A stretch of 62,821 nucleotides of DNA from Alicyclobacillus kakegawensis NBRC 103104 (GTDB lineage: Bacteria; Bacillota; Bacilli; Alicyclobacillales; Alicyclobacillaceae), in the NCBI RefSeq assembly GCF_001552655.1, contig NZ_BCRP01000018.1, positions 1 to 62,821 on the forward strand, written 5' to 3'. Numbering within the stretch: the first letter of the stretch is position 1; each line of letters begins with the position of its first letter. Below are positions 2,891 through 25,053 of the stretch, one piece after another. The notes under the pieces are model-generated. The model was not told the DNA's origin and made no database searches. It worked only from the letters and a program-made list of their open reading frames with translations. A program made the position numbers and the translations under genes.

Positions 2891-2903
2891 GTCTGTCCGT
2901 CTT

Positions 2904-2923
2904 CGCCGGCCTATCTGCCGGCG
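2904..2923. terminator. Hairpin between convergent fapA-like gene and thiC
   Basis: A perfect 7-bp stem, CGCCGGC at 2904-2910 and GCCGGCG at 2917-2923, with a 6-base loop, lies in the 43-bp gap between two convergent genes. It has no T tract on either side, so it is at best a weak bidirectional terminator. Confidence 0.4.
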
Positions 2924-2933
2924 GACATCCTGT

Positions 2934-4966
<2,033 letters not shown>

Positions 4967-4991
4967 GCTATGTGTAATTGTCGCCATCAGT

Positions 4992-5590: not shown

Positions 5591-6637
5591 TTGAGTTTGG
5601 ATCAGGTCAAACAGTCAAAATGGGGTCGGGGGCGCAAGGTGATGGCTGTCGTCGGACTCGCGGGCATGCTGACCACTGCCGCGGGGTGTGGCTCCATGGC
5701 CTCAGGCAACCCAAATTCAACAAAAAAGACAGAAGGTTCAACGTATCCCCAACACACCATAACATTCATTGTCCCGTATGCCCCAGGCGGGGATTTTGAC
5801 ACCACAGCAAGGCTCCTTGCACCTTATCTGACAAAGTATCTCCCTCATCACCCAGCGGTGATTGTCAAGAATGTTCCAGGCGGGAACAGTGTAATTGGGG
5901 ACATGCAAGTGATAAATGCCAAACCGGATGGATACACCATCGGATATTTCACACTCCCCGGGATCGCGCTCGGACCGCTGATCGGGCAGGGGAACTATGA
6001 CCTCACGAAGGTGTCTTGGATTGGGCAGGTATTCGCGATGCCTTATGTGGCTGCGGTTTCGAAGGATTCCGGCTTGAACAGCCTGAAGGACGTACAAAAA
6101 GATCCGCACCTGAAAGTGGGGACGACGGGCATTACGACGACAGCGGGGTTGATCAGCTTCATCACCCTGAAGTCCTTGGGCGTGCAGAACTCCACGACGA
6201 TACCGAGCGGCGGAAGTTCACAAAGTGTACTCGCTGCCTCTCAAGGCACGGTCGATTTTGTTCAATTTCCGTATCCAGCATTGCGCCAAGAGATATCCGC
6301 CGGGCTGTTAAAACCCTTGTGGGTCAACGCGTCGCAAAGGTTACCGGGCTTGCCCAATGTCCCGACCATAGGTCAGTTGGGGCATCCGGAGCTGGCGACG
6401 GTCGCGAGACTGGCAGGTGTGGTGGGCACAGCCCCAGGAGTCTCCCAGGAGAATTTGGCTGTCTTGCGGAGTGCGTTCAAGAAGGCGGTTCAGGATCAGG
6501 GGTTCGTTTCGAAAATGAAGGCGGCCAACGAGTCGACGCAATATTTGAACGGGCAGGACACCCTGATGGCGGTCCAAAGGGACATAAAGCTGATGCGAAA
6601 ATATGCTCCTGAGATTAAGGACGAAATCAGTCACTGA
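5591..6637 (+). CDS. tctC: Tripartite tricarboxylate transporter receptor lipoprotein (TctC/Bug family), copy 1
   Basis: TTG 5591 is preceded by AGGAGGAG. The 348-residue product has a basic N-terminus, a hydrophobic segment and a lipobox ending at Cys (TTAAGC near residue 33), so it should be a surface-anchored lipoprotein. Family landmarks are ITFIVPYAPGGDFDTTARL, VIVKNVPGGNS and AKPDGYTIGYF, typical of Bug/TctC receptors that bind carboxylated ligands (citrate, tricarballylate, phthalate-type acids and others). It begins a tctC-tctA-tctB operon: TctA follows 18 bp downstream. The ligand cannot be read from sequence; neighbouring aromatic-acid-type enzymes suggest an aromatic or dicarboxylic acid. 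Confidence 0.92.
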   Translation: MSLDQVKQSKWGRGRKVMAVVGLAGMLTTAAGCGSMASGNPNSTKKTEGSTYPQHTITFIVPYAPGGDFDTTARLLAPYLTKYLPHHPAVIVKNVPGGNSVIGDMQVINAKPDGYTIGYFTLPGIALGPLIGQGNYDLTKVSWIGQVFAMPYVAAVSKDSGLNSLKDVQKDPHLKVGTTGITTTAGLISFITLKSLGVQNSTTIPSGGSSQSVLAASQGTVDFVQFPYPALRQEISAGLLKPLWVNASQRLPGLPNVPTIGQLGHPELATVARLAGVVGTAPGVSQENLAVLRSAFKKAVQDQGFVSKMKAANESTQYLNGQDTLMAVQRDIKLMRKYAPEIKDEISH

Positions 6638-6655
6638 CGGAAAGGAGTGCTCCCT

Positions 6656-8185
6656 GTGTTTGCCCATCTTATACCTGCCGTCGGGGCATTCTTCGCTTGG
6701 CCAGCGCCCTTGTTTTTGGTGATTGGGGTGCTTGTGGGCATGTTGTTCGGCATCCTTCCGGGCTTGGGCGGACCTCAGGTTTTGGCATTGCTGACGCCCA
6801 TAACCTACAAAATGGACCACACGTCAGCGATTGTCATGATGATTGGGGCGATGAGTGCGATTCCGTTATCCGGTTCTCTCACTGCGATTCTGCTCAACCT
6901 TCCTGGCCATGCCCCGAGTGTTGCGTCCAGTTTTGACGGGTATCCGCTGACGCGTCAAGGCCGCGGCGGGTACGCAGTCGGTGCTTCCGCGATGAGTGCC
7001 ATCTTGGCCGCGGTCATTGGTGCTATCGTGCTCACGCTGATTCTACCGCTGGGCGAGCGGGTGGTGCTGGCCTTTTCGTATCCCGAGTTTTTTATGATGG
7101 CCTTGGCAGGTCTCAGCATGGTAGCCGTGATCTCCCAAAAGGGGTCAATCTGGAAAGGCATGATAACGGTTGCACTCGGTCTGATGATCGCGTTCATCGG
7201 ATCGGATCCGGTGACAGGAACGGTCCGGTTCACGTTCGGCAACCTATATTTGTACAACGGCATCGATATCGTTCCCGCTTTGATTGGGCTGTTTGCCATC
7301 AGTCAAGCCATCGACATGACCCTGAAGGGCGACAGGTTGGTCGAAACGGAAAAGATCGGAAATCGGCTCAGCGGCGTGTGGGCCGGAATGAAATCGGTCT
7401 TTCAGCACTTCGGTGCGTTTTTCCGGGGCAATCTGGTCGGGACGCTGATGGGGATGATCCCGGGAGTGGGCGGTTCGATTACGACCATTATCGCCTATGG
7501 CCAGACGGTGCAGTTCAGCAAGCACCCGGAACGTTACGGGACGGGAGAAATCGGCGGCGTCATTGCGCCCGAGGCAGCGAACAACTCCAAGGATGCAAGC
7601 GGATTCATCCCGACGCTGCTATTTGGCATCCCGAGCCATGTGGAGATGGCCGTGCTCCTGGGGACGCTGACCGTTTTGGGCATTGATCCCGGTCCCCGGC
7701 TTGTGCAGACGGATCCAGACCGGGTGCTGACGGTCATTTATGCCTTGGTGGCCGGAAATATTCTCACCGCCGCCATCGTTTTGGCTGTCGGAGGTTATCT
7801 GACCCGGCTCGTGTTGGTGCCCAGGCCCGTTCTTGGCCCCATCATCATGGCGCTGTCGGTTGTGGGAGCCTTCGCGTTGAACGGGTTGATCGGTGACGTG
7901 ATTGTCGCACTGGTGTTCGGTGTGCTGGGTTTCATCATGGACCGGTTCGAATTTCCCAAAATCAACCTCGTTATCCCCTTGATGGTCGGTAGCCTGATGG
8001 AAACGTCATTCCACCAGACCCTGCTGGCGATGGGGTGGCGGGGCTTCTTCACTCGCCCCATCTCCGTCGGGCTGCTGTGCGTCGTTTTGATTGTACTCCT
8101 CTTTTCGATTCGGCATGGCCGCTCGAACAAGCAAATGAGTGCCAGGAAGGTGGATACCGTCAGTGAAGTTCACAACATCGATTGA
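6656..8185 (+). CDS. tctA: Tripartite tricarboxylate transporter large permease TctA, copy 1
   Basis: About 509 residues with some 11-12 hydrophobic segments. The family signature is clear: GILPGLGGPQVLALLTPITY near the N-terminus, LLNLPGHAPSVASSFDGYP, and a second conserved GMIPGVGGSI with APEAANNSKDASGFIPTL. GTG 6656 is preferred because AAAGGAG lies 8-9 bases upstream; the GTG at 6647 overlaps that site. TctA is the large membrane subunit of the secondary (sodium- or proton-driven) carrier. The C-terminal 23 bases overlap the predicted start region of tctB. Confidence 0.93.
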   Translation: MFAHLIPAVGAFFAWPAPLFLVIGVLVGMLFGILPGLGGPQVLALLTPITYKMDHTSAIVMMIGAMSAIPLSGSLTAILLNLPGHAPSVASSFDGYPLTRQGRGGYAVGASAMSAILAAVIGAIVLTLILPLGERVVLAFSYPEFFMMALAGLSMVAVISQKGSIWKGMITVALGLMIAFIGSDPVTGTVRFTFGNLYLYNGIDIVPALIGLFAISQAIDMTLKGDRLVETEKIGNRLSGVWAGMKSVFQHFGAFFRGNLVGTLMGMIPGVGGSITTIIAYGQTVQFSKHPERYGTGEIGGVIAPEAANNSKDASGFIPTLLFGIPSHVEMAVLLGTLTVLGIDPGPRLVQTDPDRVLTVIYALVAGNILTAAIVLAVGGYLTRLVLVPRPVLGPIIMALSVVGAFALNGLIGDVIVALVFGVLGFIMDRFEFPKINLVIPLMVGSLMETSFHQTLLAMGWRGFFTRPISVGLLCVVLIVLLFSIRHGRSNKQMSARKVDTVSEVHNID

Positions 8186-8660
8186 TACCATAATCGTTGA
8201 TCTCACGCTGCTGGCCGTATTCATCGTGTTTGCCGCGGTAGGGGGGACGTACCAGCCCATGGCGCGCGAACTCCCCTTGCCCATCGCGATTGCGGGGTGC
8301 ATTTTGGTCTTTGTCTTGTTTCTCTCCGACCTATTTCCGCGTCTCCGTCAAGTCCTGGGCTTCGTGCATCGCCAGGGGACCGGTTCCAGCCTATCCGTGT
8401 CTACGGCTGCGCCTGCTCGGGAAACCCCCGGCCTGCCAGCCCGGGAATGGCTGCGGCTGCTGCGGTGGATTTGTTGGCTGACCGCGTTTGCGATTGGCAT
8501 ACAGATCATAGGCTATTTGGCTGCCAGCGGGGTGTTCGTGTTTCTGGTCACCTGGCTGGAGGGACGTATGCATAGGTGGCAGGCCCTACTATCCGCAATC
8601 GGAACATGTGCTTTCTTCTACATCGTGTTCCATTTGTTTCTGTCGGTTACCTTCACGTAA
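8163..8660 (+). CDS. tctB: Tripartite tricarboxylate transporter small permease TctB, copy 1
   Basis: 165 residues from GTG 8163, with AAGGTGG 9 bases upstream; an alternative in-frame GTG is at 8139. Four hydrophobic segments are visible: DLTLLAVFIVFAAVGGTY, IAIAGCILVFVLFLSDL, RWICWLTAFAIGIQIIGYL and the C-terminal ACFFYIVFHLFLSVTFT-like stretch, with a variable cytoplasmic loop of about 50 residues between the second and third. This matches the TctB small-subunit layout. The start overlaps the end of tctA, indicating translational coupling. Confidence 0.85.
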   Translation: MKFTTSIDTIIVDLTLLAVFIVFAAVGGTYQPMARELPLPIAIAGCILVFVLFLSDLFPRLRQVLGFVHRQGTGSSLSVSTAAPARETPGLPAREWLRLLRWICWLTAFAIGIQIIGYLAASGVFVFLVTWLEGRMHRWQALLSAIGTCAFFYIVFHLFLSVTFT

Positions 8661-8840
8661 TCCAGCGGATGCGCGACCCAATACCACCCGGGTGCGAAGG
8701 ATGCCGGCCCCTCAAAACCTCGTCCAGCCACATCCGGAGATGGAGGTGGTCGGGCGCCCATGCGGCCAAATCAGGGGCCGACGTCGTTCAACTTCTGGTT
8801 ACGGCATTGGGCCAAAAGTGGGGGGTGAGGCCGCCCCGCC

Positions 8841-9440
8841 CTATCCAGCCAGGGACGTGAATACGAGTCCGTTGTACAGGTGCAGCCCCAGCAACTGGTC
8901 GAACACGCCAAACGTTATCGCGCCCATCACGATGGCGGAAGCAATGGCCAGTTTCCAGTTTCGCTGACCCTTCTGCAAGATGAAGTAGAGTAAGAAGAAC
9001 AGAGGAATGCTGACGAGGAATCCGAGTACAAGCAAGCCCCCCACAAGCCCAGCGGACCAGAGAATGGCCGCCCATTGGCGGACATCCTCTCTTCGTTGCA
9101 TCTCCGCCGCTTGGGAAGCAGGCGGTGGAGGGGAGTCTATTGGAGCGACGGGTTCACTCACCTCGGCTGTGGGCGAATTCGTCCGGGCATCGACTTGTCT
9201 CGCCAAGACGGCCACCCGGTCGTCGGCTGCTGGCTGCGCCTTCCGCTGGTGCGTGAATGGACGCAAAGCAGGCACAAAATTCCCAATCACCTGGACCAAT
9301 CCCACCACCAGGGCGGCTGTGCCCACGACCATCGGAATCAGTCGTCCTGCCGGTGGATAATTCATGGAGACACGAATATACCACACTGCAACCGCCACCC
9401 AGGCGAAATCGATGAACAGCTCTCCGCGCCAGATCTTCAT
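8841..9440 (-). CDS. tctB: Tripartite tricarboxylate transporter small permease TctB, copy 2
   Basis: 199 residues; ATG 9440 has AAAGGAGG 8 bases upstream. The N-terminus (GELFIDFAWVAVAVWYIRVS) and the GRLIPMVVGTAALVVGLVQV segment are typical of TctB, followed by a long Pro/Ala-rich loop of about 70 residues and two more membrane segments. It overlaps the upstream tctA copy by 4 bases (ATGA), so the two are coupled. It faces tctB copy 1 across a 180-bp gap in which I see no other gene. Confidence 0.88.
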   Translation of the reverse strand: MKIWRGELFIDFAWVAVAVWYIRVSMNYPPAGRLIPMVVGTAALVVGLVQVIGNFVPALRPFTHQRKAQPAADDRVAVLARQVDARTNSPTAEVSEPVAPIDSPPPPASQAAEMQRREDVRQWAAILWSAGLVGGLLVLGFLVSIPLFFLLYFILQKGQRNWKLAIASAIVMGAITFGVFDQLLGLHLYNGLVFTSLAG

Positions 9441-10954
9441 AGACTGGCCTCCTTTGGCTCTTGAGTCGGAACGCGTTTTTTGAAGCGGCGAACGTAGGGG
9501 CCGATGACCAATGCCAGAATAATGGCGACCATGAGGTCGGTCAGTGGACGTTCAAACATCCTCCATCCCTGCAATTGTTGCACCAGGTAGAGATTCTTCT
9601 CGGCCACAGATCCAAGGATGTAGCCAATCATCGCGGCGGGAATCGAGTATTGGAACCGCTTCATCATCAGTCCAACCAATCCGAAGCCCAGCATGACGAC
9701 AATCTGGCCGACGTCCCGTTCTGCAGCGTACACCCCCAGCGCGCCGAGCGCTAGAATAAAGGGCACGATAATCCGACTGGGCAGCTGACTCAGTCTCGCG
9801 AGATAAGGAGCCATAGCTAGGCCCATTGCGCTTGAAAGCAGGCTTCCTATCGCGATGACCAGAGCCATCGCGAAGACCGCGTCCAGATGCTGGTTCAACA
9901 TGGAGGGGCCCGGTACCACTCCTAAAATCGTAAATCCACTCATCAGAACGGCCATTCCGACGCCCCCCGGGACGCCCAGCGCCACTGTCGGAATGAGGTT
10001 GCCTGCCTCCTTGGAAATCGATGACGATTCCGGGGCGATAATCCCTTCGGGGATGCCTGTTCCGAATTTCTCCGGGTGTTTGGAAGTCTTGACCGCTTGC
10101 CCGTACGAGATAAAGTTGGCCGCTACCCCGCCAATACCGGGAACCACCCCGAGCAGGGTGCCGAGAATGGCGGAGCGTACCATCAGCCAGGAGTGTCGGA
10201 ACACATCGCGAATCCCATCGGTGACTCGAGCGCCGGGGGCGTTCCCCTTGAATCCAATCTTGGTGGATTGGGTCGTCACCCTGTTTTTTGCGTACAGAGA
10301 AAACATCTCCGCGAACGCGAACAACCCCAGTGCAACCGCCGTAATGCTGCAACCGTTGTAAAGTGACAGCAGGTTGAACGTGAACCGCTGTACGCCAGTA
10401 ATCGGATCGTAGCCGACGAACGATACCATCAAACCAAACAGCCCGGAGAGCAAACCTTTGGTCAGCGATCCGGACCGCATCTGTCCAATCAGGATAATGG
10501 CCAAAACGGCCAGCATCAGATAGTCGGACGGCTGAAACAATTGAATCAGCTGATACATCAACGGGATGACCGCCATCAACAGAAGCACGCCAATCCAGCC
10601 CCCGATTGTCGTGGAAACGGCGGAGACCCCCAGGGCCCTGGCTGCTTTCCCTTGGCGGGTCATTGCGTATCCGTCAAAGGTGGTGGCGGCGGATTCGGGA
10701 GCGCCCGGAGTGTTCAACAGAATAGCTGTGATAGAACCACTGAAGTAAATACCTGTGTGCGCGGCCAACAGCAGGCTAAGCGCTGGAATCACAGGCATTC
10801 CATAGATAAAAGGAAGAAGCATGGTGAGCAAAACGGCTCCGCCCAAGCCCGGGATGGTCCCAATCAACGTGCCGAGCAGTGAGCCGAGCAACAAGAGCAG
10901 CAGTCCATGCACCGTCAGGAGTGAAGAGAAACCAGCCAACACAGCCGAAAACAC
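9437..10954 (-). CDS. tctA: Tripartite tricarboxylate transporter large permease TctA, copy 2
   Basis: 505 residues from GTG 10954 (AGGAGGT 6 bases upstream). TctA signatures are present: GTIPGLGGAVLLTMLLPFIY, LLNTPGAPESAATTFDGYAM, GVVPGIGGVAANFISYGQA and APESSSISKEAGNLIPTVAL. It has about 11 membrane segments. The product is clearly paralogous to copy 1 but diverged throughout, so the two carriers probably have different ligands rather than being a recent duplication. Confidence 0.93.
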   Translation of the reverse strand: MFSAVLAGFSSLLTVHGLLLLLLGSLLGTLIGTIPGLGGAVLLTMLLPFIYGMPVIPALSLLLAAHTGIYFSGSITAILLNTPGAPESAATTFDGYAMTRQGKAARALGVSAVSTTIGGWIGVLLLMAVIPLMYQLIQLFQPSDYLMLAVLAIILIGQMRSGSLTKGLLSGLFGLMVSFVGYDPITGVQRFTFNLLSLYNGCSITAVALGLFAFAEMFSLYAKNRVTTQSTKIGFKGNAPGARVTDGIRDVFRHSWLMVRSAILGTLLGVVPGIGGVAANFISYGQAVKTSKHPEKFGTGIPEGIIAPESSSISKEAGNLIPTVALGVPGGVGMAVLMSGFTILGVVPGPSMLNQHLDAVFAMALVIAIGSLLSSAMGLAMAPYLARLSQLPSRIIVPFILALGALGVYAAERDVGQIVVMLGFGLVGLMMKRFQYSIPAAMIGYILGSVAEKNLYLVQQLQGWRMFERPLTDLMVAIILALVIGPYVRRFKKRVPTQEPKEASL

Positions 10955-10988
10955 AGGGACACCTCCTCGGAGACTGCCGGAAAAAGAC

Positions 10989-12089
10989 TTACTTGGCCTG
11001 CAGCAGTGGTTTTAAATGGCTCGTATTGGCCACGGCGTTGTCCGCGATGTTCGTTAACTCGCTCCCTGACAGGTAACCTACGTAAAGGTTTTCTTTCTTT
11101 GCCTGGGCAATGAACGACGGATCGGACAATGCCTTCTGAAATGCCTTCCGCAGCGCCGCTACACGATCCGCTGGGATGCCGGGAGGCGCGATGAACGCGT
11201 GGCCCAGATCCATGATCTTTGCCATTTCTTTCAGGGCGTTGATCTTGTCTTGGTTCAGTCCGGCTTGTTGCGCCAGCTCGATGACCGTGGGCACGTTGGG
11301 CAACTTCTTGAAGCGCTCTGTCGACTGTAAGAGTATAACCTTGGCTTGATCAGGTATCTCCGCGATGTCGGAGGCCGACAGTGAAATGGTGTCGCCGTTG
11401 CCGCTCAAGAACGAAGCCTTTTCATCCTTGCTGCCACTGAATGCCGCGACCATCGTGTAGGGAATGTTGAACGCATTGAGTGTGATGACTGCCGCATTGT
11501 AGTCGGAACTTCCCTTGCCAGTTGCCAGGGCCTTAATCGTCTTCTGGGCATGTTCTAAGTCGGTAAAAGACTTGTATGGGCCGTTCGTGTGAACGCCGAG
11601 GATATGCGGGTCGTCGTCCGGTCGTCCAATCCACGTGAGTTTCGTGACATCGAAATTCACGCCCGGGGTGTTGTCGATTTGGTCGAATACATCGCCACCG
11701 GCGTTTGTATCACCAATTGTGAGACCATCAGGTTTTGCGCTGTAGATCTGATTGGTACCTACAATTCCCCCTCCCCCCGGGACGTTTACGACTTCAACTT
11801 TGCCGAGGCCAAGATACTCTTGCAGGTAGGGAGCAATCAGCCGGGCCCATTGATCGTAGCCGCCCCCCGGACCGTACGGAACCAGAATCTGCATCGTCTT
11901 GTCTTTGAAAAAAGCTGAAGCCGATGTCGCTGACTCGGTGTGGGATGTCGACACGTTCTTTTGACTTCCTGTAGCGCCTTCACCTGTTGCTCCGGAGTTG
12001 GAGGTCTTGCCACTGGTGCCACAGCCCACAGCGAGAACAGAAAGCGCTACCACTGAGGCCGAAATGATCAACCACTTGTGATTGTTCAT
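10989..12089 (-). CDS. tctC: Tripartite tricarboxylate transporter receptor lipoprotein (TctC/Bug family), copy 2
   Basis: 366 residues; ATG 12089 has AAGGAGAGG 8 bases upstream. Signal sequence with lipobox LAVGC (Cys about residue 23) and a Ser/Thr/Gly-rich linker, then MQILVPYGPGGGYDQWARL, VVNVPGGGGIVG and AKPDGLTIGDTN, the usual Bug-family core. It is the first gene of the minus-strand tctC-tctA-tctB operon. The upstream region carries a spaced inverted repeat shared with the divergent MFS gene. Confidence 0.92.
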   Translation of the reverse strand: MNNHKWLIISASVVALSVLAVGCGTSGKTSNSGATGEGATGSQKNVSTSHTESATSASAFFKDKTMQILVPYGPGGGYDQWARLIAPYLQEYLGLGKVEVVNVPGGGGIVGTNQIYSAKPDGLTIGDTNAGGDVFDQIDNTPGVNFDVTKLTWIGRPDDDPHILGVHTNGPYKSFTDLEHAQKTIKALATGKGSSDYNAAVITLNAFNIPYTMVAAFSGSKDEKASFLSGNGDTISLSASDIAEIPDQAKVILLQSTERFKKLPNVPTVIELAQQAGLNQDKINALKEMAKIMDLGHAFIAPPGIPADRVAALRKAFQKALSDPSFIAQAKKENLYVGYLSGSELTNIADNAVANTSHLKPLLQAK

Positions 12090-15097: not shown

Positions 15098-15634
15098 GTG
15101 GGGGGCGAGTCGCACTATCACAGCAAGAAAGACCGGGTGTTCGTACGAGCAATTCAGGGTGAATACAGCCTGAAGCAGGAGCTGGAGCGCCTACGGTCTC
15201 TGCCCCGTGTCCGGCGCGGTGACGAAATCAAGTTTATGGATGGGCCACAGACGTTCAGTAAGCACTACATGGAACCCGTCGACGGACTGGGGCAAACGCT
15301 GCATATCCACGTGGAGGAATATGCGCCCGGAGGAAAGTCGCAGAAACATGGGCATGTGAACGAAGCAGCGTTCTACATTCTCGACGGCAGCGGATACGAG
15401 ATCCACGACGGGGTTCGCTACAACTGGCGGGCGGGCGATGTGGCCATCGTGCACAACAACTGCGTCCATCAGCACAATAACGCAGACCCTTTCAAGCCGG
15501 CTCGTGCACTGGTCATCAAGACAAAGCCCATGTACATGTTCATGAACATGTTGTTTCAGAAAACGGTCATTCCGCGTCCGACAGAGCCGACTGAACACGG
15601 TGCTGGCTTCGTGCCGCGGGAAGACGAGGTGTAA
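15098..15634 (+). CDS. Cupin-domain protein 1
   Basis: 178 residues from GTG 15098 (AGGGAGG 7 bases upstream). A single conserved cupin barrel is centred on residues 75-150. Motif 1 reads GGKSQKHGHVNEAAFYILDG, with HGH and Glu; motif 2 reads GDVAIVHNNCVHQHNN. All metal ligands (two His, Glu, His) are present. Such proteins are small metal-dependent dioxygenases, isomerases or binding proteins; the substrate cannot be read. It starts a run of plus-strand genes with a second cupin 54 bp downstream. Confidence 0.82.
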   Translation: MGGESHYHSKKDRVFVRAIQGEYSLKQELERLRSLPRVRRGDEIKFMDGPQTFSKHYMEPVDGLGQTLHIHVEEYAPGGKSQKHGHVNEAAFYILDGSGYEIHDGVRYNWRAGDVAIVHNNCVHQHNNADPFKPARALVIKTKPMYMFMNMLFQKTVIPRPTEPTEHGAGFVPREDEV

Positions 15635-15688: not shown

Positions 15689-16285
15689 ATGGCTTGGGGC
15701 GAGTCGAAGGTGTGGAACCAGGGTGACCTCACCCTGCGGTTCTATCAGGATACGCTGGATGATGCGGCAGAACGACCACAGCGTGATCAAATGCGGAAAA
15801 AGATCATTCATCCCTGGGAGATGCCGTGGGAACTGGCGCCACAGGGCATCCTCAAACACATGATTAACGAACAAATGAACACCCGGATGGAGACTGTGGA
15901 CGCCTACATGCAGGTGATTCCACCCGGCAGTCGGTCCGGGAAACACCGTCATCTCGCGGAAGAATGCCTGTACGTGTTGGAAGGTCGGGGATACGACCTT
16001 CACCAGGACTGTGACGTGGAGATTACAGATACGTATCATTGGAAGTCGCAGGATGAGGTGAAGCGGTTCGAGTGGAAGGCGGGCGATGTCATCTACATTC
16101 CTCCGAATACGATTCACCAGCACTTCAACTCAGATCCCGAAAAGCCCGCGCGGCTGATTTCTGCGGTCAACCGCATCTACAAATATTCGGGGTTGAACGA
16201 CCTGGAGCAGCTGGAAAACGCTCCTGAGTATGTGCCCAATCAACGCATCCATGCGGAGTGGGTAACGAAGGCGCTCCGGCGTTGA
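15689..16285 (+). CDS. Cupin-domain protein 2
   Basis: 198 residues from ATG 15689; GGGAGGG lies about 7 bases upstream. Cupin motif 1 is IPPGSRSGKHRHLAEECLY (HRH plus Glu) and motif 2 is GDVIYIPPNTIHQHFNSD, so the full metal site is present. It is more like the bicupin at 21.3 kb and cupin 1 than like common cupins in having HQHFN or HQHNN in motif 2. About 30 N-terminal residues and a C-terminal tail (EYVPNQRIHAEW) extend beyond the barrel. Probably co-transcribed with cupin 1. Confidence 0.82.
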   Translation: MAWGESKVWNQGDLTLRFYQDTLDDAAERPQRDQMRKKIIHPWEMPWELAPQGILKHMINEQMNTRMETVDAYMQVIPPGSRSGKHRHLAEECLYVLEGRGYDLHQDCDVEITDTYHWKSQDEVKRFEWKAGDVIYIPPNTIHQHFNSDPEKPARLISAVNRIYKYSGLNDLEQLENAPEYVPNQRIHAEWVTKALRR

Positions 16286-16616: not shown

Positions 16617-17609
16617 ATGGGAAAGTTGCAGTTATCGTTTGCCTGCTGGAATTATGACCGGGTGGCAGCGCTTTTTGATGGATCCGTCACTGTACAAGGG
16701 GTGGACCTGAATCCTTTGTCGATGGAGGTTGAGGAGACGTTCTGGCGTATGATGCGGCACCAGGAATTCGACGTGGCAGAACTGTCTCTCTCTTCCTATT
16801 TAATCGCTCGTGACCGGGGGTTTCCGCGTTTTACGGCCATCCCAGTATTTCCGTCGCGGGCGTTTCGCCATGGGTGCATCTTTATCCATAAACGAGCGGG
16901 AATTTCCCGGCCGCAAGACCTGCGGGGGAAGCGTATCGGGCTCCCGGAGTACCAACTAACCGCGTGTTTGTGGATTCGCGGCATTCTTCAGCACGAGTAT
17001 GGTGTACATCCGAGCGACGTGGAGTGGTATGTGGGCGGCGAGGAGACTCCGGGGCGTGTTGAGAAGGTCCCGTTGGATCTCCCGAAAGATGTCCATGTTC
17101 ATGCGATTGGGCCGAATGAAACCTTGAACCGGATGTTGGATGCCGGAGAATTGGATGCGTTTATAGGTCCTCGCGCACCGTCCGCGTTTTTGAACGGGTC
17201 TCCGAACGTGGCTCGGCTCTTCCCAGACTATGAACAGCAAGAACGCCGCTATTTCGAGAGAACCAAGATATTCCCCATAATGCATGTCATTGTAATACGA
17301 GACGACGTGTTGCAGCAACACCCATGGCTGGCCATGAACTTGTACAAAGCATTCGTGGCGGCCAAACAGGCAGTGTACGACGGGTTTCGGCAGACGGCTG
17401 CGCTGAAGGTCACACTACCGTGGTTGACCGCCGAAGTGGAACGGACCGAATCCATTATGGGAAAAGATTTTTGGCCCTACGGGGTGGCGGCAAACCGGGC
17501 GACCCTCGAAGCCGCCGTTGCGTACTCGTATGAACAAGGGATGATTCGCCAACCGTTATCAGTTGAGGAATTATTTGCGCCTGCAACGCTGGAATCTTAC
17601 ATCATCTAG
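16617..17609 (+). CDS. 4,5-dihydroxyphthalate decarboxylase-like protein (Pht5 family)
   Basis: 330 residues, the family length; ATG 16617 has TAGGAGGG 6-7 bases upstream. Features are LSFACWNYDRV at the start, EVEETFWRMM, FDVAELSLSSYL, PVFPSRAFRHGCIF and LRGKRIGLPEY. The fold is related to type 2 periplasmic binding proteins, but there is no signal peptide, in agreement with an intracellular enzyme. In phthalate catabolism the family removes CO2 from 4,5-dihydroxyphthalate to give protocatechuate. Here the presence of a Rieske oxygenase 3 kb downstream supports an aromatic-acid role, but some family members have other or unknown functions. Confidence 0.75.
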   Translation: MGKLQLSFACWNYDRVAALFDGSVTVQGVDLNPLSMEVEETFWRMMRHQEFDVAELSLSSYLIARDRGFPRFTAIPVFPSRAFRHGCIFIHKRAGISRPQDLRGKRIGLPEYQLTACLWIRGILQHEYGVHPSDVEWYVGGEETPGRVEKVPLDLPKDVHVHAIGPNETLNRMLDAGELDAFIGPRAPSAFLNGSPNVARLFPDYEQQERRYFERTKIFPIMHVIVIRDDVLQQHPWLAMNLYKAFVAAKQAVYDGFRQTAALKVTLPWLTAEVERTESIMGKDFWPYGVAANRATLEAAVAYSYEQGMIRQPLSVEELFAPATLESYII

Positions 17610-17735: not shown

Positions 17736-18866
17736 ATGGTGAACCAGGTCTTGGCGGCCGTAGCATGGGCTCCTAAACAAACACAGCTGAGAGAATTTCT
17801 ACGGCCCGAAGTACCGCAGGATGGCGGCGTGTTGCAGGTGGAAACGGTCGGCGTCTGCGGGACTGATGTGGCCAACTACGCGACCGTGCGGGAACCGCGC
17901 ATCCTCGGGCATCATGTTGTCGGGTTTGTGTCCGGACTTGGCGCTGAGGCTTCGCGGCGATGGGGGCTCCATGAGGGAGACCGAGTGGCCATGGAGGAGT
18001 ACATTCCGTGCGGGCAATGCAAGGAGTGCCGGCGGGGGAGGTACCGTGCCTGCCCCTTCACCGATTCACGCCGCGGCGGGCTGCGCTACGGAAACACGCC
18101 CATTGATGTGCCGCCGGCGTTGTGGGGAGGGTTTGCAGAATACCTCTACCTTCATCCCAATGCGGTCTTGCACCGCATGCCCGCACACGTCCCGTCTGTG
18201 GAAGCTGCGATGACATTGCCGATAGCGAATGGTTTCGAGTGGATGGATGTGGAGTGTGGCGTGAGGTTCGGTCAGACAGTGGTCATCCAGGGGCCTGGGC
18301 AGCAGGGGTTAGCCTGTCTGTTGGCCGCAAAATCCTTGGGGGCAAGTGTGATGGTTGTCGGCCGGCAAAGCAGTCGCCATCGACTTGAATTGGCTCGCCA
18401 GCTCGGCGCGGACGCCATCGTCAATGTGACGCATGAGGATTTGTCCCAGAAGGTGCTCGATTTTACGGGAGGAGACCTCGCAGATGTGGTCATTGATGTG
18501 ACGTCGGGTGGATCCGACCCGGTCAAGCAATCCTTCGACATCGTGAGGCGCGGTGGGACCGTCGCGTTGGCCGCTTACAAACACCAAACAATTCCAGCTT
18601 GGGACGTCGATCAAGTGGTGGCGAAGTCGGTAACCGTGAAAGGGTTGCGTGGTCATAGCCACCGGTCTGTCGAAATGGCTATCGACTGCATCGCGGATGG
18701 TAGGTTTCCCATACATCTGTTGAACTCTCACCACTTCAGCCTCCAGGATACGGATTTGGCGCTCCGGACGGCTGGGGGTGAGGGTGAACCGAATCCCCTA
18801 TTGGTGGCCGTATCTCCCGGCTTGGCGCAGGTGAAGAAAGGAAGGCACTCGAATCCTTCATCGTGA
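17736..18866 (+). CDS. Zinc-dependent alcohol dehydrogenase (MDR superfamily)
   Basis: 376 residues from ATG 17736 (GGAAGGTG 9 bases upstream). Catalytic zinc site: VCGTD Cys and ILGHHVVG, where the usual GHE is GHH. The structural zinc loop is CGQCKECRRGRYRAC (C-x2-C-x2-C-x7-C). The cofactor site is GPGQQGLACLLAAKSLGA. The enzyme should oxidise an alcohol or diol with NAD(P)+ in the cytoplasm. It lies between the decarboxylase-like gene and the iclR gene on the same strand; its substrate is not evident. Confidence 0.88.
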   Translation: MVNQVLAAVAWAPKQTQLREFLRPEVPQDGGVLQVETVGVCGTDVANYATVREPRILGHHVVGFVSGLGAEASRRWGLHEGDRVAMEEYIPCGQCKECRRGRYRACPFTDSRRGGLRYGNTPIDVPPALWGGFAEYLYLHPNAVLHRMPAHVPSVEAAMTLPIANGFEWMDVECGVRFGQTVVIQGPGQQGLACLLAAKSLGASVMVVGRQSSRHRLELARQLGADAIVNVTHEDLSQKVLDFTGGDLADVVIDVTSGGSDPVKQSFDIVRRGGTVALAAYKHQTIPAWDVDQVVAKSVTVKGLRGHSHRSVEMAIDCIADGRFPIHLLNSHHFSLQDTDLALRTAGGEGEPNPLLVAVSPGLAQVKKGRHSNPSS

Positions 18867-19008: not shown

Positions 19009-19776
19009 GTGGCTCGAGCAGCGGCACATCTGTCATCGGTTCACAACGCTATCCGAATTCTTCAAGAATTTTCAGATGAAAAGCCGGAGTTGGGGATCAG
19101 CGAACTGAGCGCCCGTCTCGGCATCGCCAAGAGCACCGTATACCGGCTTTTGCACACGCTCAGCGAAATGCGATTGGTGGATCAGGATGCACGCTCCCAC
19201 AAATACCGTCTGGGGCTCGGGCTGTTCGTGCTGGGTTCCATCCCTTACCGGCGGATGGAGATCCGTGTCAAATCGTTTCCTTTGCTGATTGATCTCATGC
19301 ATCGGGTGCGCCGGGTGGTGCGGCTGGCCGTTTACGACCAGGGGGCGGTCGTGTATCTGTGCAAGTTGCCAGAGGACAAGGAGACCACCAAGTTCAGCAG
19401 CATCGGCAAGCGAGTGGCGTGCCACAGCACCGCGGTCGGCAAGCTGTTGCTCGCTTATCAAGACGAGGAGGAAATCGCACGGGTTCTTCGGAGACCGTTG
19501 AAAGCGTATACAAGGCGGACCATCGTGAACCCAGAGATAATCCGGGAACAGCTGCTGGCAATACGTAAAAACGGGTATGCCACCACGTATGAAGAATCCA
19601 CGAAGGGAGCTTGTTCCGTCGCAGTGCCAGTGGCGACGGAGGAGGGACGAGTGATTGCGGCGCTCAGTGTCACTGCGGGGAAATCCGAGTTCTTCCCCAA
19701 TCAGGTTCAGGAATATGTGCGCGAAATGCGTGTCTACAGTCGGTTGATCACGGAACAGCTCGACGGCGACGGATGA
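19009..19776 (+). CDS. IclR-family transcriptional regulator
   Basis: 255 residues from GTG 19009, with AGGAGGT 7 bases upstream. An N-terminal winged helix-turn-helix (residues 10-70: GISELSARLGIAKSTVYRLL) is followed by the IclR effector domain with CHSTAVGKLLLAY and ACSVAVPVATEEGRVIAAL. IclR proteins bind small carboxylic or aromatic acids and control nearby catabolic operons. AT-rich sequence with TATAAT at 18919-18924 lies 85 bases upstream. Probable targets are the flanking oxygenase and cupin genes (inference). Confidence 0.93.
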   Translation: MARAAAHLSSVHNAIRILQEFSDEKPELGISELSARLGIAKSTVYRLLHTLSEMRLVDQDARSHKYRLGLGLFVLGSIPYRRMEIRVKSFPLLIDLMHRVRRVVRLAVYDQGAVVYLCKLPEDKETTKFSSIGKRVACHSTAVGKLLLAYQDEEEIARVLRRPLKAYTRRTIVNPEIIREQLLAIRKNGYATTYEESTKGACSVAVPVATEEGRVIAALSVTAGKSEFFPNQVQEYVREMRVYSRLITEQLDGDG

Positions 19777-19953
19777 TATCCACCGCATACCGTTCACCGG
19801 TTTCAGCTGCCCGTCTGGAGGCCTAGGCGCCCGTATGGACGCACGCAAAAAATTTTCTATTAGTGTTCCACAGACCAGAAACCACGGTCCGTTCTCTCGG
19901 CACCCATCCCTATAATGACTCTTGACACAAGAATGGAAGGGGATGTGAGGGCG

Positions 19954-21225
19954 ATGCTGAAGCGAGAGGACAACGAACGCATTACACGAACCGGTCCGGG
20001 CACACCCATGGGAGAAGTGTTCAGAAGGTATTGGATCCCGGCGCTTTTGTCCGAAGAACTGCCGGAGCCTGACTGTCCCCCGGTTCGCGTCCGGCTGCTC
20101 GGGGAAGACTTGGTTGCATTCCGCGACAGTGATGGCCGCGTGGGGCTTCTGGACGCCTACTGCCCACACCGGCGGGCGCACCTGTTCTGGGGGCGCAATG
20201 AGGAATGCGGTCTTCGCTGCGTCTATCACGGGTGGAAATTTGACGTGACCGGGCAGTGTGTGGATATGCCCAACGAGCCACCGGAGAGCAACTTTAAACA
20301 CAAGGTCAAGACGGTCGCCTATCCCTGCTGGGAGGGAGGCGGCGTCATCTGGACGTACATGGGACCACGCGACGAGCAGCCTCCCTATCCAGATTACGAA
20401 TGGATTCGCGCGCCGGAAACCCATCGATTCGTCAGCAAGACATTTGAGGATTGCAATTACTTGCAGGCGCTCGAAGGCGGCATCGATACATCGCATTCTT
20501 CCTTCGCACACAATAATAACCTGCAGGACAAGAAGGCCTTACGCACCCGCGCCACTGCGCCCAAACTCGAAGTGCATAAACGGCCTTATGGATTCACGTA
20601 CGTAGGCATCCGCGACCTAGGGAGCGATGGAAACTACGTCCGAGCCTATCAATTTATTATGCCGGCGCAGCAGATGCGGGGATATATGACGAATTGGAGC
20701 ACCGGCGAACCCGAGCGATACCCGTCGGTGAACGGCCACATTTGGGTTCCCGTGGACGACGAGCACTGCTGCGTCTACAACTGGTTTTATTCCGCCGACC
20801 CACAGCGGCCGTTGCCCCGGAAATACTGCTTGGAACACGAGGCCTTGTTCGGGCGTGGGCCGGAGGATATGTTGCCTGGCTACCGGTTGAAGAGGAACAA
20901 ATCGAACGACTACCTGATTGACCGTGAGGTGCAGCGCACGAAAACGTTCACTGGCATCTCCGGAATCAACACTCAGGACTTTGCCTTGCAGGAGACAATG
21001 CTTCCCATTGTCGACCGTTCAAAGGAGCGCCTGGGTTCTGCCGACGCTGCCATCATTGTGGCCAGGCAGTTGCTGCTGGAGGCGACTCGCGAAGTGGAGT
21101 CCGGCAAGCCGCCACGCGGGGTCGATCCGCGCACGTACCGCAACGTGCGGGGTTGCGACCGCATTCTGCCCAAGGGTGTTCCCTGGCAGGAAGGCTTGAA
21201 AGAAGAACTGGCGGCAAAATTTTGA
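19954..21225 (+). CDS. Rieske non-heme iron oxygenase, alpha subunit type
   Basis: 423 residues from ATG 19954, chosen because the family typically begins with MLxREDNE followed by GPGTPMGE; upstream in-frame codons at 19915 and 19945 are less likely. Rieske cluster ligands are CPHRRAH and CVYHGW (CxH-x17-CxxH). The mononuclear iron site is LEGGIDTSHSSFAHNN, with Asp and two His. This matches phthalate 4,5-dioxygenase/aromatic O-demethylase-type single-subunit oxygenases, which hydroxylate or demethylate aromatic acids using O2. No ferredoxin or reductase gene is in the window, so electrons must come from elsewhere. A bicupin gene follows 29 bp downstream. Confidence 0.9.
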   Translation: MLKREDNERITRTGPGTPMGEVFRRYWIPALLSEELPEPDCPPVRVRLLGEDLVAFRDSDGRVGLLDAYCPHRRAHLFWGRNEECGLRCVYHGWKFDVTGQCVDMPNEPPESNFKHKVKTVAYPCWEGGGVIWTYMGPRDEQPPYPDYEWIRAPETHRFVSKTFEDCNYLQALEGGIDTSHSSFAHNNNLQDKKALRTRATAPKLEVHKRPYGFTYVGIRDLGSDGNYVRAYQFIMPAQQMRGYMTNWSTGEPERYPSVNGHIWVPVDDEHCCVYNWFYSADPQRPLPRKYCLEHEALFGRGPEDMLPGYRLKRNKSNDYLIDREVQRTKTFTGISGINTQDFALQETMLPIVDRSKERLGSADAAIIVARQLLLEATREVESGKPPRGVDPRTYRNVRGCDRILPKGVPWQEGLKEELAAKF

Positions 21226-21254
21226 CTGGGCGTACATGCATGGAGGTGAATGGG

Positions 21255-22370
21255 ATGGCCAAGGTGTCGGAGGAGTTGGCGAAACGGTTTGCCACAGAAA
21301 AGGACTCCAGGTATGAGGCCTGGGTGCGGGAGGAAGGGTTGGACATCATCGCGGCCCACTATGTACCGGATTTGCACACCGTGGAGGTCAAGCCGTGGCC
21401 GCGGCGGGGCGGTGCGGGTGTTTTCATCAATCACGAGTCTTCGCGGACATCCAATGATTGCTACGTATGCGATATTCCGCCCGGCGGGAAGTTGGCGCCA
21501 CAGCGCCAGTTGTACGAAGAAATGATCTACGTGCTCGACGGTCATGGTTCGACATCGGTGTGGAATGACGCCGGGGCCAGGGTGACGTTCGAGTGGCAGG
21601 CTGGGTCGCTGTTCGCCATTCCCCTCAACTGCTGGCACCAGCATTTCAACAGCTCCGGGTTGGAAAAAGTACGCTTTCTCGCGGTGACGAATGCCCCCAT
21701 GGTCATCAACCTGTACGGAGAGACAGACTTCGTGTTCAACACTGCGTATGATTTCCGCAGCCGGTTCCGCGGGGAGCCCGACTACTTTGCCGACGAGGGC
21801 ACACAGAAAGGGTTTCTACTGGAAACCAACTTTGTGGCAGATACCCGCTCCCTGCCGCTCATCAGCGCCAAAGAACGTGGGGCGGGCGGCGGTCACATAC
21901 GTTTCAATTTAGCCAAGGGTTCCATGAACAGCCACATCTCCGAATTTCCGGTCGGGACCTACAAGAAGGCGCATCTGCATGGCCCGGGCGCGCACGTTAT
22001 CATTCTCAGCGGCGAGGGGTTCAGTTTCATGTGGCCGGAGAACTCGCCGTTGCGGCGATACGACTGGAAAGAAGGCAGCATGATTGTGCCACCGGATCGC
22101 TGGTACCATCAGCATTTTAATACGGGGGCGACACCGGCACGATACCTGGCTTTGAAATATGAGGGCACCGCGATTCGCAACGAGCAGGGAGTGCCCAAGG
22201 CCTGGATCAGCAAACGCCTGGGCGGCGATCAAATTGATTACGCCGACGAGGATCCGCAGGTTCGCAGGGTGTTTGAAAGCGAACTGGCCAAACACGGCCT
22301 GCAGTCGCAGATGCAGCCGGTGTACGAGGCTGAACTCGCTCAGCTCGAAAAGGACGGCTTAAGTCGATGA
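21255..22370 (+). CDS. Bicupin protein (two cupin barrels)
   Basis: 371 residues from ATG 21255 with GGAGGTG 6 bases upstream. Barrel 1 (about residues 60-170) has LAPQRQLYEEMIYVLDGHG in place of an HxH motif 1, though its second motif (CWHQHFNSS) is kept. Barrel 2 (about 235-330) has an intact KKAHLHGPG motif and YHQHFNTG. So only barrel 2 seems to have a full metal site. Bicupins include gentisate and 1-hydroxy-2-naphthoate dioxygenases; this one is similar in layout but I cannot assign a substrate. It lies directly after the Rieske gene and overlaps the next gene by 4 bases. Confidence 0.82.
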   Translation: MAKVSEELAKRFATEKDSRYEAWVREEGLDIIAAHYVPDLHTVEVKPWPRRGGAGVFINHESSRTSNDCYVCDIPPGGKLAPQRQLYEEMIYVLDGHGSTSVWNDAGARVTFEWQAGSLFAIPLNCWHQHFNSSGLEKVRFLAVTNAPMVINLYGETDFVFNTAYDFRSRFRGEPDYFADEGTQKGFLLETNFVADTRSLPLISAKERGAGGGHIRFNLAKGSMNSHISEFPVGTYKKAHLHGPGAHVIILSGEGFSFMWPENSPLRRYDWKEGSMIVPPDRWYHQHFNTGATPARYLALKYEGTAIRNEQGVPKAWISKRLGGDQIDYADEDPQVRRVFESELAKHGLQSQMQPVYEAELAQLEKDGLSR

Positions 22371-23968
22371 ATGTGGAACCGGTTCGATTTCCTGACGTGC
22401 GGGGTCTTCCGATGTTGTGGATGCATGAGACCGGTGACGACCACTTTCACGACGATGAGGACTGGTCTCCAGAGACGGATGGCCTGTGGTTGTCCGACCA
22501 TTTTGAACTGATGAGCGTGGGCATGGATATCGGATCCGCCTCCACACAGGTGGCATTTTCTCGATTGACGCTGCATCGGTTGGGGAGTGACCTGTCCAGC
22601 CGATACCAGGTGGTGGAGCGGGAGTCGGTCTACCGCTCCTCCATCTGGCTGACCCCGTATTCTGGACCCCATCGAATCGACGAGGCGAAGCTCGAAGAAT
22701 ACATTGCTGAGGCTTACCGGGAAGCCGGCATTCCGCACGCGAGTGTGGATACAGGGGCGGTCATTCTGACGGGAGAGGCGATTCGACGGGAAAACGCGGA
22801 GGCGATTGCCCACATGCTGGCCCGCCAGGGCGGGCGGTTTGTCTGTGCTATCGCCGGGCATAACATGGAAGCCTCTCTGGCCGCGCATGGCTCGGGCACC
22901 GTGCGTCTTTCGCACCAACAACGATCCCGCTTGTTGAACGTGGACATCGGCGGGGGAACCACGAAGCTTTCCGTGGTCGAGTCCGGACGCGTCGTCGAAA
23001 CGGCCGCGTTGCATATCGGGGGCCGCTTGATGGCGACCGACGCATCGGGAAGGCTGACGCGACTGGAGCCGGCCGGACAAAGGATTGCAGAAGGGCTTGG
23101 CATTCACCTGGAGATTGGGCAGGCGGTCTCGCAAGCCGTCAAGGACAAGATTTCCGCATGGCTTGCCGTGCAGTTGTCCCGGGCCTTGGCACCGGAGCCG
23201 CTCCCGGACACCGTAAAAGAGTTGTACATCACTCCCCCTCTCAAGCGGCGCGGGCCCTACGATGGCGTCGTGTTCTCGGGCGGCGTGGGGGAATACGTGT
23301 ACGGCCTCACTGACCAGGACTTTGGCGACCTCGGTCGCTTTCTGGGAGTGGCCGTGCGCCGGCAGTTTGAACGTGGGCAGTTTGGGCCGGTGCTCCGCGC
23401 CGGAGAATGTCTGCGCGCCACGGTCGTGGGTGCGTCCGAATACAGCGTGCAGGTGAGTGGCAACACGATTTTTCTGTCGAGCCCGCGAGTGTTACCGGTG
23501 CGGAACGTGCCAGTCCTGCATCCACCGTGTGATTTGGACTCCGCTATCAATCCGGTGGCCATGGGAAAACAGATCCTGGATCACTTTCACCGGTTCGACT
23601 TGGAAGAAGGAAATTCCGATGTGGCGCTGTCGTTCCACTTTGGTGGCCTCCCGACGTATGACCGCATGCACGCCCTATGCGAAGGGTTGTGCCATGGACT
23701 TCCGACTTCGTTTCGCGGGCGACGGCAGGTGACCATGCTGTTTGACAGCGACATCGCCAAAACCGTGGGTCACCTTCTCCAGGAGGAATTCGGCGTGAAG
23801 TGTCCGCTGTTAATCCTGGACGGCATTCACCTGCACGATTTTGATTACGTGGACATTGGCCGAAAAATAGAACCGGCCGGTGTCGTTCCCGTCACGGTGA
23901 AATCGCTGGTGTTTCAATTGCGGGATGGCTGGGATCACGCATCATCCACGCATCCGCCGGTGCAGTGA
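22367..23968 (+). CDS. EutA-like ATPase (ethanolamine ammonia-lyase reactivating factor family)
   Basis: 533 residues; ATG 22367 overlaps the bicupin stop (ATGA). An acidic N-terminus (GDDHFHDDEDW) is followed by an actin/Hsp70-like ATPase core: SVGMDIGSASTQVAFSRL (phosphate 1), LLNVDIGGGTTKLSVV (phosphate 2) and VVFSGGVGEYVYG (adenosine site). This order and the EGLGI segment match EutA, which removes damaged cobalamin from ethanolamine ammonia-lyase. However, no eutB or eutC is in the window. Coupling to the bicupin suggests a different client, or a chaperone-like role for a metalloenzyme (inference). A Ni/Co transporter gene follows 74 bp downstream. Confidence 0.8.
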   Translation: MNVEPVRFPDVRGLPMLWMHETGDDHFHDDEDWSPETDGLWLSDHFELMSVGMDIGSASTQVAFSRLTLHRLGSDLSSRYQVVERESVYRSSIWLTPYSGPHRIDEAKLEEYIAEAYREAGIPHASVDTGAVILTGEAIRRENAEAIAHMLARQGGRFVCAIAGHNMEASLAAHGSGTVRLSHQQRSRLLNVDIGGGTTKLSVVESGRVVETAALHIGGRLMATDASGRLTRLEPAGQRIAEGLGIHLEIGQAVSQAVKDKISAWLAVQLSRALAPEPLPDTVKELYITPPLKRRGPYDGVVFSGGVGEYVYGLTDQDFGDLGRFLGVAVRRQFERGQFGPVLRAGECLRATVVGASEYSVQVSGNTIFLSSPRVLPVRNVPVLHPPCDLDSAINPVAMGKQILDHFHRFDLEEGNSDVALSFHFGGLPTYDRMHALCEGLCHGLPTSFRGRRQVTMLFDSDIAKTVGHLLQEEFGVKCPLLILDGIHLHDFDYVDIGRKIEPAGVVPVTVKSLVFQLRDGWDHASSTHPPVQ

Positions 23969-24042
23969 GAGTCGGAGTTTTTTGAGAGCGTATTGAATAT
24001 TTCCCATACACACATGTGGAGGCAGCGGAAAGGAGTCTATCC

Positions 24043-25053
24043 ATGAATCCACGCCGATGGTTGCGATACGCTGTGCTGATTGGGGGATTGCATGCGCTGG
24101 GCGTCACGTTGCTCGTGGTCGCTGCCCACCGTCACCCCGGCCTCATCGGGATGGCTTTTTTGGCCTACACGTTCGGATTGAGGCATGCCTTTGACGTCGA
24201 CCACATTGCCGCTATCGACAACACGGTGCGAAAGCTCGTGCAACAACGAGCGGATCCAATTGGCGTGGGATTCTTTTTTTCCTTGGGACACTCGACTGTG
24301 GTGGCCTGCATGACGGTGTTCACAGTGCTATCCGTGCACGTGGTAGAACGACGCCTGCCCCAGCTGCAGACCGTCGGAGGTATGGTGGGAACGGTCGTGT
24401 CTGGGGTATTCTTGCTGATCATCGGTGTGGTGAATTTGTTCATCCTGTTTGATGTCTATCGGTTGTTTTCCCAGATGCGCACGTGCGGGCATCTGGAACA
24501 GCACGTGGAAGAATTGTTGCTGTCGCGCGGACTGGTGGCGCGCCTGGCGCGTCCCTTGCTGCGGCTGGTGACGAAAAGCTCACACATTTATCCGATTGGG
24601 CTTCTGTTCGGTTTGGGCTTTGATACGGCCAGCGAGGTCGCCTTACTGGCGATGTCCGCCATGGCGGTGAAAAATGCCGTTCCCCTCCCGGGCGTTTTAG
24701 CGTTGCCCGTGCTGTTCGCGGCCAGCATGAGCCTGATGGATACCGCGGATGGAGTCTTTATGACGACCGCCTATAAGTGGGCTTTGTCCACCCCGCTCCG
24801 GAAGGTGTACTACAATCTTTCCGTAACCGGTCTGGGCGTGGCGGCGGCGCTGTTGATTGGCGTGATTGAGCTGGCCCAGGCGCTGGTTTCACAACTCGGT
24901 TTGCACAGCGCGCTCTGGGACTGGGTTCAACAGCTGGATTTGGGACGGCTGGGCTTTCTTCTGGTCGCCCTGTTCATCCTGGTGTGGGCGATGTCGTTCG
25001 GGTTCTGGAAGCTGTTTCGTGTCGAGGAGAGATGGAGCAAGGCGACACCGTGA
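24043..25053 (+). CDS. NiCoT-family nickel/cobalt transporter
   Basis: 336 residues from ATG 24043 with GGAAAGGAG 7 bases upstream. The NiCoT signature in helix 2 is RHAFDVDHIAAIDN (HxxxDH core), and LGFDTASEVALL matches the second signature; about eight membrane segments are visible. The protein takes up Ni2+ or Co2+ across the cytoplasmic membrane. Placement after the EutA-like gene suggests metal supply to the cupins or to a cobalamin enzyme; which ion it prefers cannot be told from sequence. Confidence 0.93.
   Translation: MNPRRWLRYAVLIGGLHALGVTLLVVAAHRHPGLIGMAFLAYTFGLRHAFDVDHIAAIDNTVRKLVQQRADPIGVGFFFSLGHSTVVACMTVFTVLSVHVVERRLPQLQTVGGMVGTVVSGVFLLIIGVVNLFILFDVYRLFSQMRTCGHLEQHVEELLLSRGLVARLARPLLRLVTKSSHIYPIGLLFGLGFDTASEVALLAMSAMAVKNAVPLPGVLALPVLFAASMSLMDTADGVFMTTAYKWALSTPLRKVYYNLSVTGLGVAAALLIGVIELAQALVSQLGLHSALWDWVQQLDLGRLGFLLVALFILVWAMSFGFWKLFRVEERWSKATP

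Follow-up and report, generated by a model that had tools for sequence, protein, structure and literature searches.

A branch of EutA-like ASKHA ATPases inherited together with a bicupin, with a possible role in the maturation or reactivation of its partner

The EutA-like ATPase encoded in a 62,821-nucleotide stretch of Alicyclobacillus kakegawensis NBRC 103104 (hereafter the window) belongs, as judged by sequence comparison, to a branch that is distinct from the true EutA proteins and that is inherited as a unit with an adjoining bicupin. Very probably, this bicupin is either the target of the ATPase or works together with it, while the more specific reading, i.e., that of a dedicated ASKHA-fold ATPase which matures or reactivates its neighbor, would have roughly even prospects. 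Such a reactivase or metal-insertion role is suggested by the EutA family to which the protein belongs, by its histidine-containing tail and by the nickel-transporter genes among its neighbors. With the pair conserved in three phyla, some cupin enzymes would seem to require an energy-driven partner; we know EutA-type reactivases solely from enzymes that depend on B12, and the general view of cupins is that they take up their metal unaided. The features of the cluster are collected in Table 1.

Table 1. Features of the bicupin/ATPase cluster in the window, in order of position
Feature	Position	Strand	Details
Single-domain cupin A	15098..15634	+	Cupin_2; in 7 Alicyclobacillaceae clusters
Single-domain cupin B	15689..16285	+	Cupin_2; in 7 Alicyclobacillaceae clusters
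NMT1/phosphonate-binding-like protein	16617..17609	+	PF12974, PF09084
Zinc-type alcohol dehydrogenase	17736..18866	+	PF08240, PF00107
IclR-family regulator	19009..19776	+	PF01614, PF09339
Rieske oxygenase, LigXa-like	19915..21225	+	PF00355, PF19301; frequent, not constant neighbor
Bicupin	21255..22370	+	371 aa; Cupin_2 and Cupin_1 matches; stop overlaps ATPase start
C-terminal cupin, predicted metal-site region, HxH...HQH	21972..22115	+	invariant in 19 rows
EutA-like ASKHA ATPase	22367..23968	+	533 aa, ATG start; PF06277 E 3.6e-120
Acidic His-containing N-terminal ATPase tail (HETGDDHFHDDEDW)	22424..22465	+	HxH in 14/19 branch members
Second nucleotide-binding loop DIGGGTTK	22943..22966	+	K200 diagnostic: K 19/19, true EutA N 36/36
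NicO nickel/cobalt transporter	24016..25053	+	PF03824 E 6e-92; TIGR00802 over cut-off

The Pfam family PF06277 (EutA) spans residues 47–517 of the ATPase, covering the whole ASKHA part, with 402.5 bits against a curated cut-off of 27. The protein lies below the cut-off of all four NCBIfam EutA equivalog models (best 337.9 versus 598 bits), and its score for PF01869, representing the BadF/BcrA-type activators, is likewise under the curated cut-off (24.8 versus 31.5 bits). Three segments, D54-I-G-S57, D193-I-G-G-G-T-T-K200 and S304-G-G-V-G-E309, which we take to be the ASKHA phosphate and adenosine motifs, contain the key nucleotide-binding residues; these are shared with EutA and are invariant across the 19 aligned rows of the branch, which bears out an earlier, sequence-only reading of this DNA that had described the ATPase motifs as intact. 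The predicted model of the ATPase is middling (mean pLDDT 64.4, pTM 0.55) and, at that quality, is consistent with an ASKHA fold equipped with these residues. All 50 structural matches listed for this model align inside residues 43–521, the best being a PPX-like protein (Z 13.1, 263 residues, 6.8 Å); among the matches listed, exopolyphosphatases rank top, and FtsA, MreB and the corrinoid reductive activator (PDB 3zyy, Z 9.9, 253 residues, 5.1 Å) rank lower, all of these being presumably of the ASKHA type. A phmmer search of the ATPase against the PDB returned weak matches only (MreB, PilM and EutJ) and no EutA structure, and a profile of the 19 rows returned five weak matches (MreB, PPX/GppA and EutJ).

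A tree of 55 rows, which is midpoint-rooted and contains two rows on long branches, places the 19 bicupin-linked proteins and 36 true EutA proteins in separate sister clades, both at 100/100. The true-EutA rows comprise loci L007–L033, i.e., 27 of the 33 full-length EutA places besides that of the window (the six without a locus were omitted), together with nine others (L066–L072, L083 and L084). The two clades are set apart by fixed residue differences, as window positions 57, 200 and 513 are occupied by Ser, Lys and Ser in all 19 branch rows, whereas true EutA carries Thr (36/36), Asn (36/36) and Thr (35/36) at the same positions. The bicupin-linked clade itself splits into three subclades.

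A further difference from true EutA is the acidic tail ahead of the fold, although five branch members (L063, L064b, L065, L081b and L082a) do not have it in its HxH-containing form. No such acidic His tail was found in the nine true EutA rows examined; in eight of these the candidate starts lie at most 11 residues ahead of the fold, and in the ninth no possible start codon was found there. Between the window and L003 the tail codons exhibit nine synonymous and no nonsynonymous changes over 35 codons, and between the window and L045 they exhibit 17 synonymous and four nonsynonymous changes; since the changes are mostly synonymous, the tail is constrained at the protein level.

The bicupin-linked branch also differs from EutA in its lack of an EutB client. 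No match to EutB (PF06751) was obtained in the window or anywhere in the genome (3.42 Mb, 99.75% complete), while an E. coli control was matched, and a profile search found no second full-length EutA in this genome, the other EutA match being confined to positions 146–207 of 475 with 23.1 bits, under the cut-off. The absence of eutB that had been read from the window therefore holds for the entire genome, and the finding that had been named as counter-evidence, namely eutB elsewhere in the genome with no other eutA, did not materialize. EutB is similarly absent from all 14 distinct genomes with a bicupin-linked ATPase, each searched whole, and from the fetched stretches of four Rhizobiales plasmids. 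By comparison, it is present in six of six actinobacterial genomes carrying true EutA and in the fetched stretches of 34 of the 36 true-EutA loci, one of the two misses (L014) having a shortened stretch. Within the order to which the window belongs, the ATPase was matched in seven of 59 genomes (E <= 1e-20, identity 59–100%), and an even draw of 346 Actinomycetota yielded matches in 11 genomes at 12 places. Six of these places, in five genomes and with 36–50% identity, adjoin a bicupin; the remaining six (identity 32–35%) sit in genomes with EutB. Four related loci were taken from the genome collection, one of them, judged by its genome, being the same record as G319 and another corresponding to G358.

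The claim that the EutA-like gene overlaps the bicupin gene by four bases is confirmed by the ATGA at 22367–22370, which is common to the bicupin stop codon TGA (22368–22370) and the ATPase start codon ATG (from 22367). Furthermore, a homologous bicupin adjoins all 23 branch ATPases identified, whose 18 source genomes or plasmids belong to Alicyclobacillaceae, Actinomycetota and Rhizobiales, with 15 pairs located in 14 genomes and eight on four Rhizobiales plasmids, each of which holds two pairs; the 19-row alignments include the pairs of L081 and L082, whereas L100 and L101 count toward the pairing only. The possibility that such linkage would prove not to be conserved, raised together with the original proposal, is thus contradicted. 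The bicupin lies upstream on the same strand in 22 of the 23 pairs, the two genes being divergent neighbors in Phytohabitans (L005). No bicupin was found in the fetched stretches of the 36 true-EutA loci, 27 of which extend just ~1.5 kb past the gene and two of which represent the same gene. The converse search returned the bicupin in exactly the same seven of 59 genomes of the order as the ATPase, and in the same five of the 346 Actinomycetota as the branch ATPase. One extra actinobacterial cupin match, in G392, is weak and partial (138 of 363 positions, E 1.5e-22), and that genome yielded no ATPase at E 1e-20. A congener, G320, has neither of the two genes. The corresponding Fisher values, 2.9e-9 for the order and 0.002 for six versus six actinobacterial places, ignore common descent and are not usable as probabilities.

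Co-inheritance of the two genes is apparent where subclades coexist: in G435 and on the rhizobial plasmids, which hold two of them, each ATPase lies beside a bicupin of its own subclade. The distances among ATPases and among bicupins correlate with an r of 0.892, the best of 2000 permutations reaching 0.444, although these permutations ignore common descent and are not usable as probabilities; swapping partners within the two-pair replicons drops r to 0.679, 0.782 and 0.782. The bicupin tree is weakly resolved (six of 16 inner branches starred, eight open, and long branches meeting), and co-inheritance is therefore claimed at the level of subclades only.

The pairing in 23 of 23 cases and the co-inheritance would fit equally well with the main rival explanation, according to which ATPase and bicupin form a single obligate two-subunit enzyme that depends on ATP, in which the ASKHA partner phosphorylates or otherwise activates a substrate and the bicupin completes the reaction. 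In acetone carboxylase and in hydantoinase/oxoprolinase, an ASKHA subunit indeed activates the substrate, and the branch-specific K200 in the nucleotide loop could mean altered chemistry. The nearest family by sequence is nevertheless EutA, a reactivating factor, and a two-subunit enzyme would leave the nickel/cobalt-transport neighbors, present in eight of 18 clusters, unexplained. We consider this explanation possible, though rather unlikely.

The bicupin, the proposed client of a maturing or reactivating ATPase, is assigned from its sequence features to the cupin superfamily, with two domains and metal-type histidines in the C-terminal cupin. Cupin_2 matches it in two stretches. ATG 21255, following GGAGGTGA (21242–21249), is a more likely start than the TTG at 21153 of the open reading frame list, and it gives the length in Table 1. 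In a numbering that begins at GTG 21246, H243-x-H245 and H288-Q-H290 of the C-terminal cupin are invariant in 19 of 19 rows. This HxH...H arrangement aligns with that in the C-terminal cupin of gentisate 1,2-dioxygenase (PDB 3bu7; profile E 2.8e-8), a likeness that is remote only. In the N-terminal cupin, 12 of 13 subclade I bicupins have Gln at the two HxH positions, in the form Q-R-Q; this domain retains E91 (same numbering, 19 rows) and aligns with auxin-binding protein 1 by profile. The equivalog for the 5-aminosalicylate 1,2-dioxygenase MabB gives the bicupin 31.3 bits, far under its cut-off of 650, and the predicted bicupin model is poor (mean pLDDT 47.0, from a five-row input alignment) and was hence set aside.

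The sequence-only reading had left the client as a cupin or a Rieske enzyme, of which the former is favored. No relative of the Rieske gene of the window was found in L062–L065, where L063 has a different Rieske type, and in G305 (L047, 11428–11721) the gene is reduced to remnants next to a full-length bicupin and ATPase, while it is intact in L048, a close relative of L047. The Rieske oxygenase was rejected as the partner of the ATPase on account of this absence and these remnants and, with the Rieske gene being the less constant neighbor, the bicupin is taken as the partner. Genes for tripartite carboxylate transporters, Rieske oxygenases, alcohol dehydrogenases and NMT1-like proteins are repeatedly found near the pairs, as are amidohydrolase, RraA-like and alpha/beta-hydrolase genes in the rhizobial and several actinobacterial clusters; this gene content suggests that the cluster serves to break down an aromatic carboxylate or a related one. 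Beside the cluster, positions 5591–12089 of the window hold two sets of genes in opposite orientation, which look like tripartite tricarboxylate transporters and which we take to be TctC/TctA/TctB-like, in part from their similarity to annotated genes of L082.

A role of the ATPase as a regulator or sensor of this pathway, its ATPase or client-handling function having been lost, is improbable: ASKHA folds do sometimes serve in regulators, e.g., in ROK proteins, but the key nucleotide-binding residues are invariant in 19 rows, no DNA-binding domain from Pfam was found in the ATPase at E 0.01, and regulators of other types are present, an IclR-family one in the window and, adjoining the pair, a GntR one in L005.

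Regarding the metal, the NicO protein of the window scores 354.9 for TIGR00802 against a cut-off of 333.05, and does not reach the nickel-specific equivalog NF052500 (358 versus 450). A NicO gene lies within eight of 18 clusters, with nikR alongside in one. All seven pair-bearing Alicyclobacillaceae genomes have NicO within the cluster, at varying positions, adjoining the ATPase gene in three and beside an MFS gene in four. On the plasmid of Phyllobacterium zundukense (L082, 9911–11513), nikR and a HoxN/HupN/NixA-type nickel transporter gene are directly beside the pair; the ATPase there lacks the His tail, so that the nickel genes occur without it in this case. NicO was not found in the other ten clusters, i.e., seven actinobacterial and three Sinorhizobium stretches, one of them spanning just 9 kb, so that a general use of nickel is not implied. 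With 34 of 59 genomes of the order carrying NicO, its presence alone is weak evidence, and it was accordingly not taken as proof of nickel; the position within the cluster and nikR carry the weight. Urease alpha, another possible nickel user, is over the cut-off in four of the seven cluster-bearing genomes of the order, and in the genome of the window a second NicO gene lies ~4 kb from it. In G304 the NicO of the cluster is the sole NicO of the genome, and searches of that genome at E 0.001 came up empty for urease alpha as well as for NiFe-hydrogenase; the hydrogenase matches in the seven cluster-bearing genomes number three, each within positions 1–69 of 508, and are presumably complex I-like. 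No metal or cobalamin riboswitch was detected at the Rfam gathering score in the window and six cluster loci.

These observations point to the use of nickel or cobalt by something in the cluster. The nickel user would be the bicupin, for which nickel is a plausible metal, with the two single-domain cupins, which could be metal users, as further candidates; cupins A and B of the window have 81–94% identical counterparts in the other six Alicyclobacillaceae clusters. That nickel is involved in the lineage of the window is a tentative proposition to which we give somewhat less than an even chance. The least probable explanation, that the ATPase is a reactivase for another B12-dependent enzyme elsewhere in the genome and is linked to the bicupin by co-regulation only, would accord with the B12-dependent client of the EutA family and with the ability of NicO-type transporters to carry cobalt, but is opposed by the same bicupin partner across three phyla, the co-duplication with the bicupin and the fixed residue differences from true EutA.

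If the ATPase matures or reactivates the bicupin, its ATP-driven opening and closing would hold or open the latter, allowing the C-terminal His metal site to be loaded, or to be cleared of an inactive metal and then reloaded. A parallel may be seen in EutA, which frees ethanolamine ammonia-lyase of damaged cobalamin. The metal in Alicyclobacillaceae and Phyllobacterium would be nickel (or cobalt), imported by NicO of the cluster, and the His/Asp tail of the ATPase, where present, may be its landing site, while the bicupin would be an oxygenase operating with the Rieske oxygenase and the tripartite carboxylate transporters in the catabolism of aromatic or related carboxylic acids. The full sequence of events, in which NicO imports Ni2+ that is bound by the tail and then inserted into the bicupin, or exchanged for a wrong metal, at the expense of ATP, is doubtful as a whole; many cupins take up their metal without an ATPase.

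ASKHA metalloenzyme activators act on corrinoid or iron-sulfur proteins, and we know of no cupin client for them. Should the nickel-insertion reading be true, no earlier nucleotide-driven maturase would be known to us for the cupin superfamily, and the EutA family would gain a second class of client. For the bicupin-linked branch, the database name 'ethanolamine ammonia-lyase reactivating factor EutA', which both branch members on the Phyllobacterium plasmid bear (the ATPase of L082 being annotated as such a reactivating factor), is misleading. For the cupin dioxygenase QueD, a nickel quercetinase, Ni2+ was reported as the most likely physiologically relevant cofactor, and its incorporation was attributed by the authors to complex stability, the terms 'chaperone' and 'transporter' being absent from the main text (PMC4416304). 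QueD is compared with the bicupin of the window by cupin type and by a possible use of nickel. The open-licence PMC literature yielded no paper tying the EutA family or ASKHA proteins to a bicupin, cupin or Rieske enzyme, none joining a nickel transporter with a nickel cupin dioxygenase, and none on PF06277. Papers that matched EutA together with a cupin and a dioxygenase dealt with compatible solutes, and one that matched EutA as a reactivating ATPase dealt with the Pelobacter carbinolicus genome.

Among viral contigs, the ATPase was matched by one short fragment and the bicupin by nothing. In L065, a gene for a type I GTP cyclohydrolase, FolE2, is located downstream of the bicupin/ATPase pair (3110–4000), and L064 contains a putative heavy-metal exporter of the ArsP_2 type (2570–3724) on the same stretch as its two pairs. 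Finally, a TPP riboswitch (60.2 bits) was identified on the minus strand of the window at 4866–4976, directly upstream of an open reading frame on the same strand (2934–4865) that is presumably thiC.
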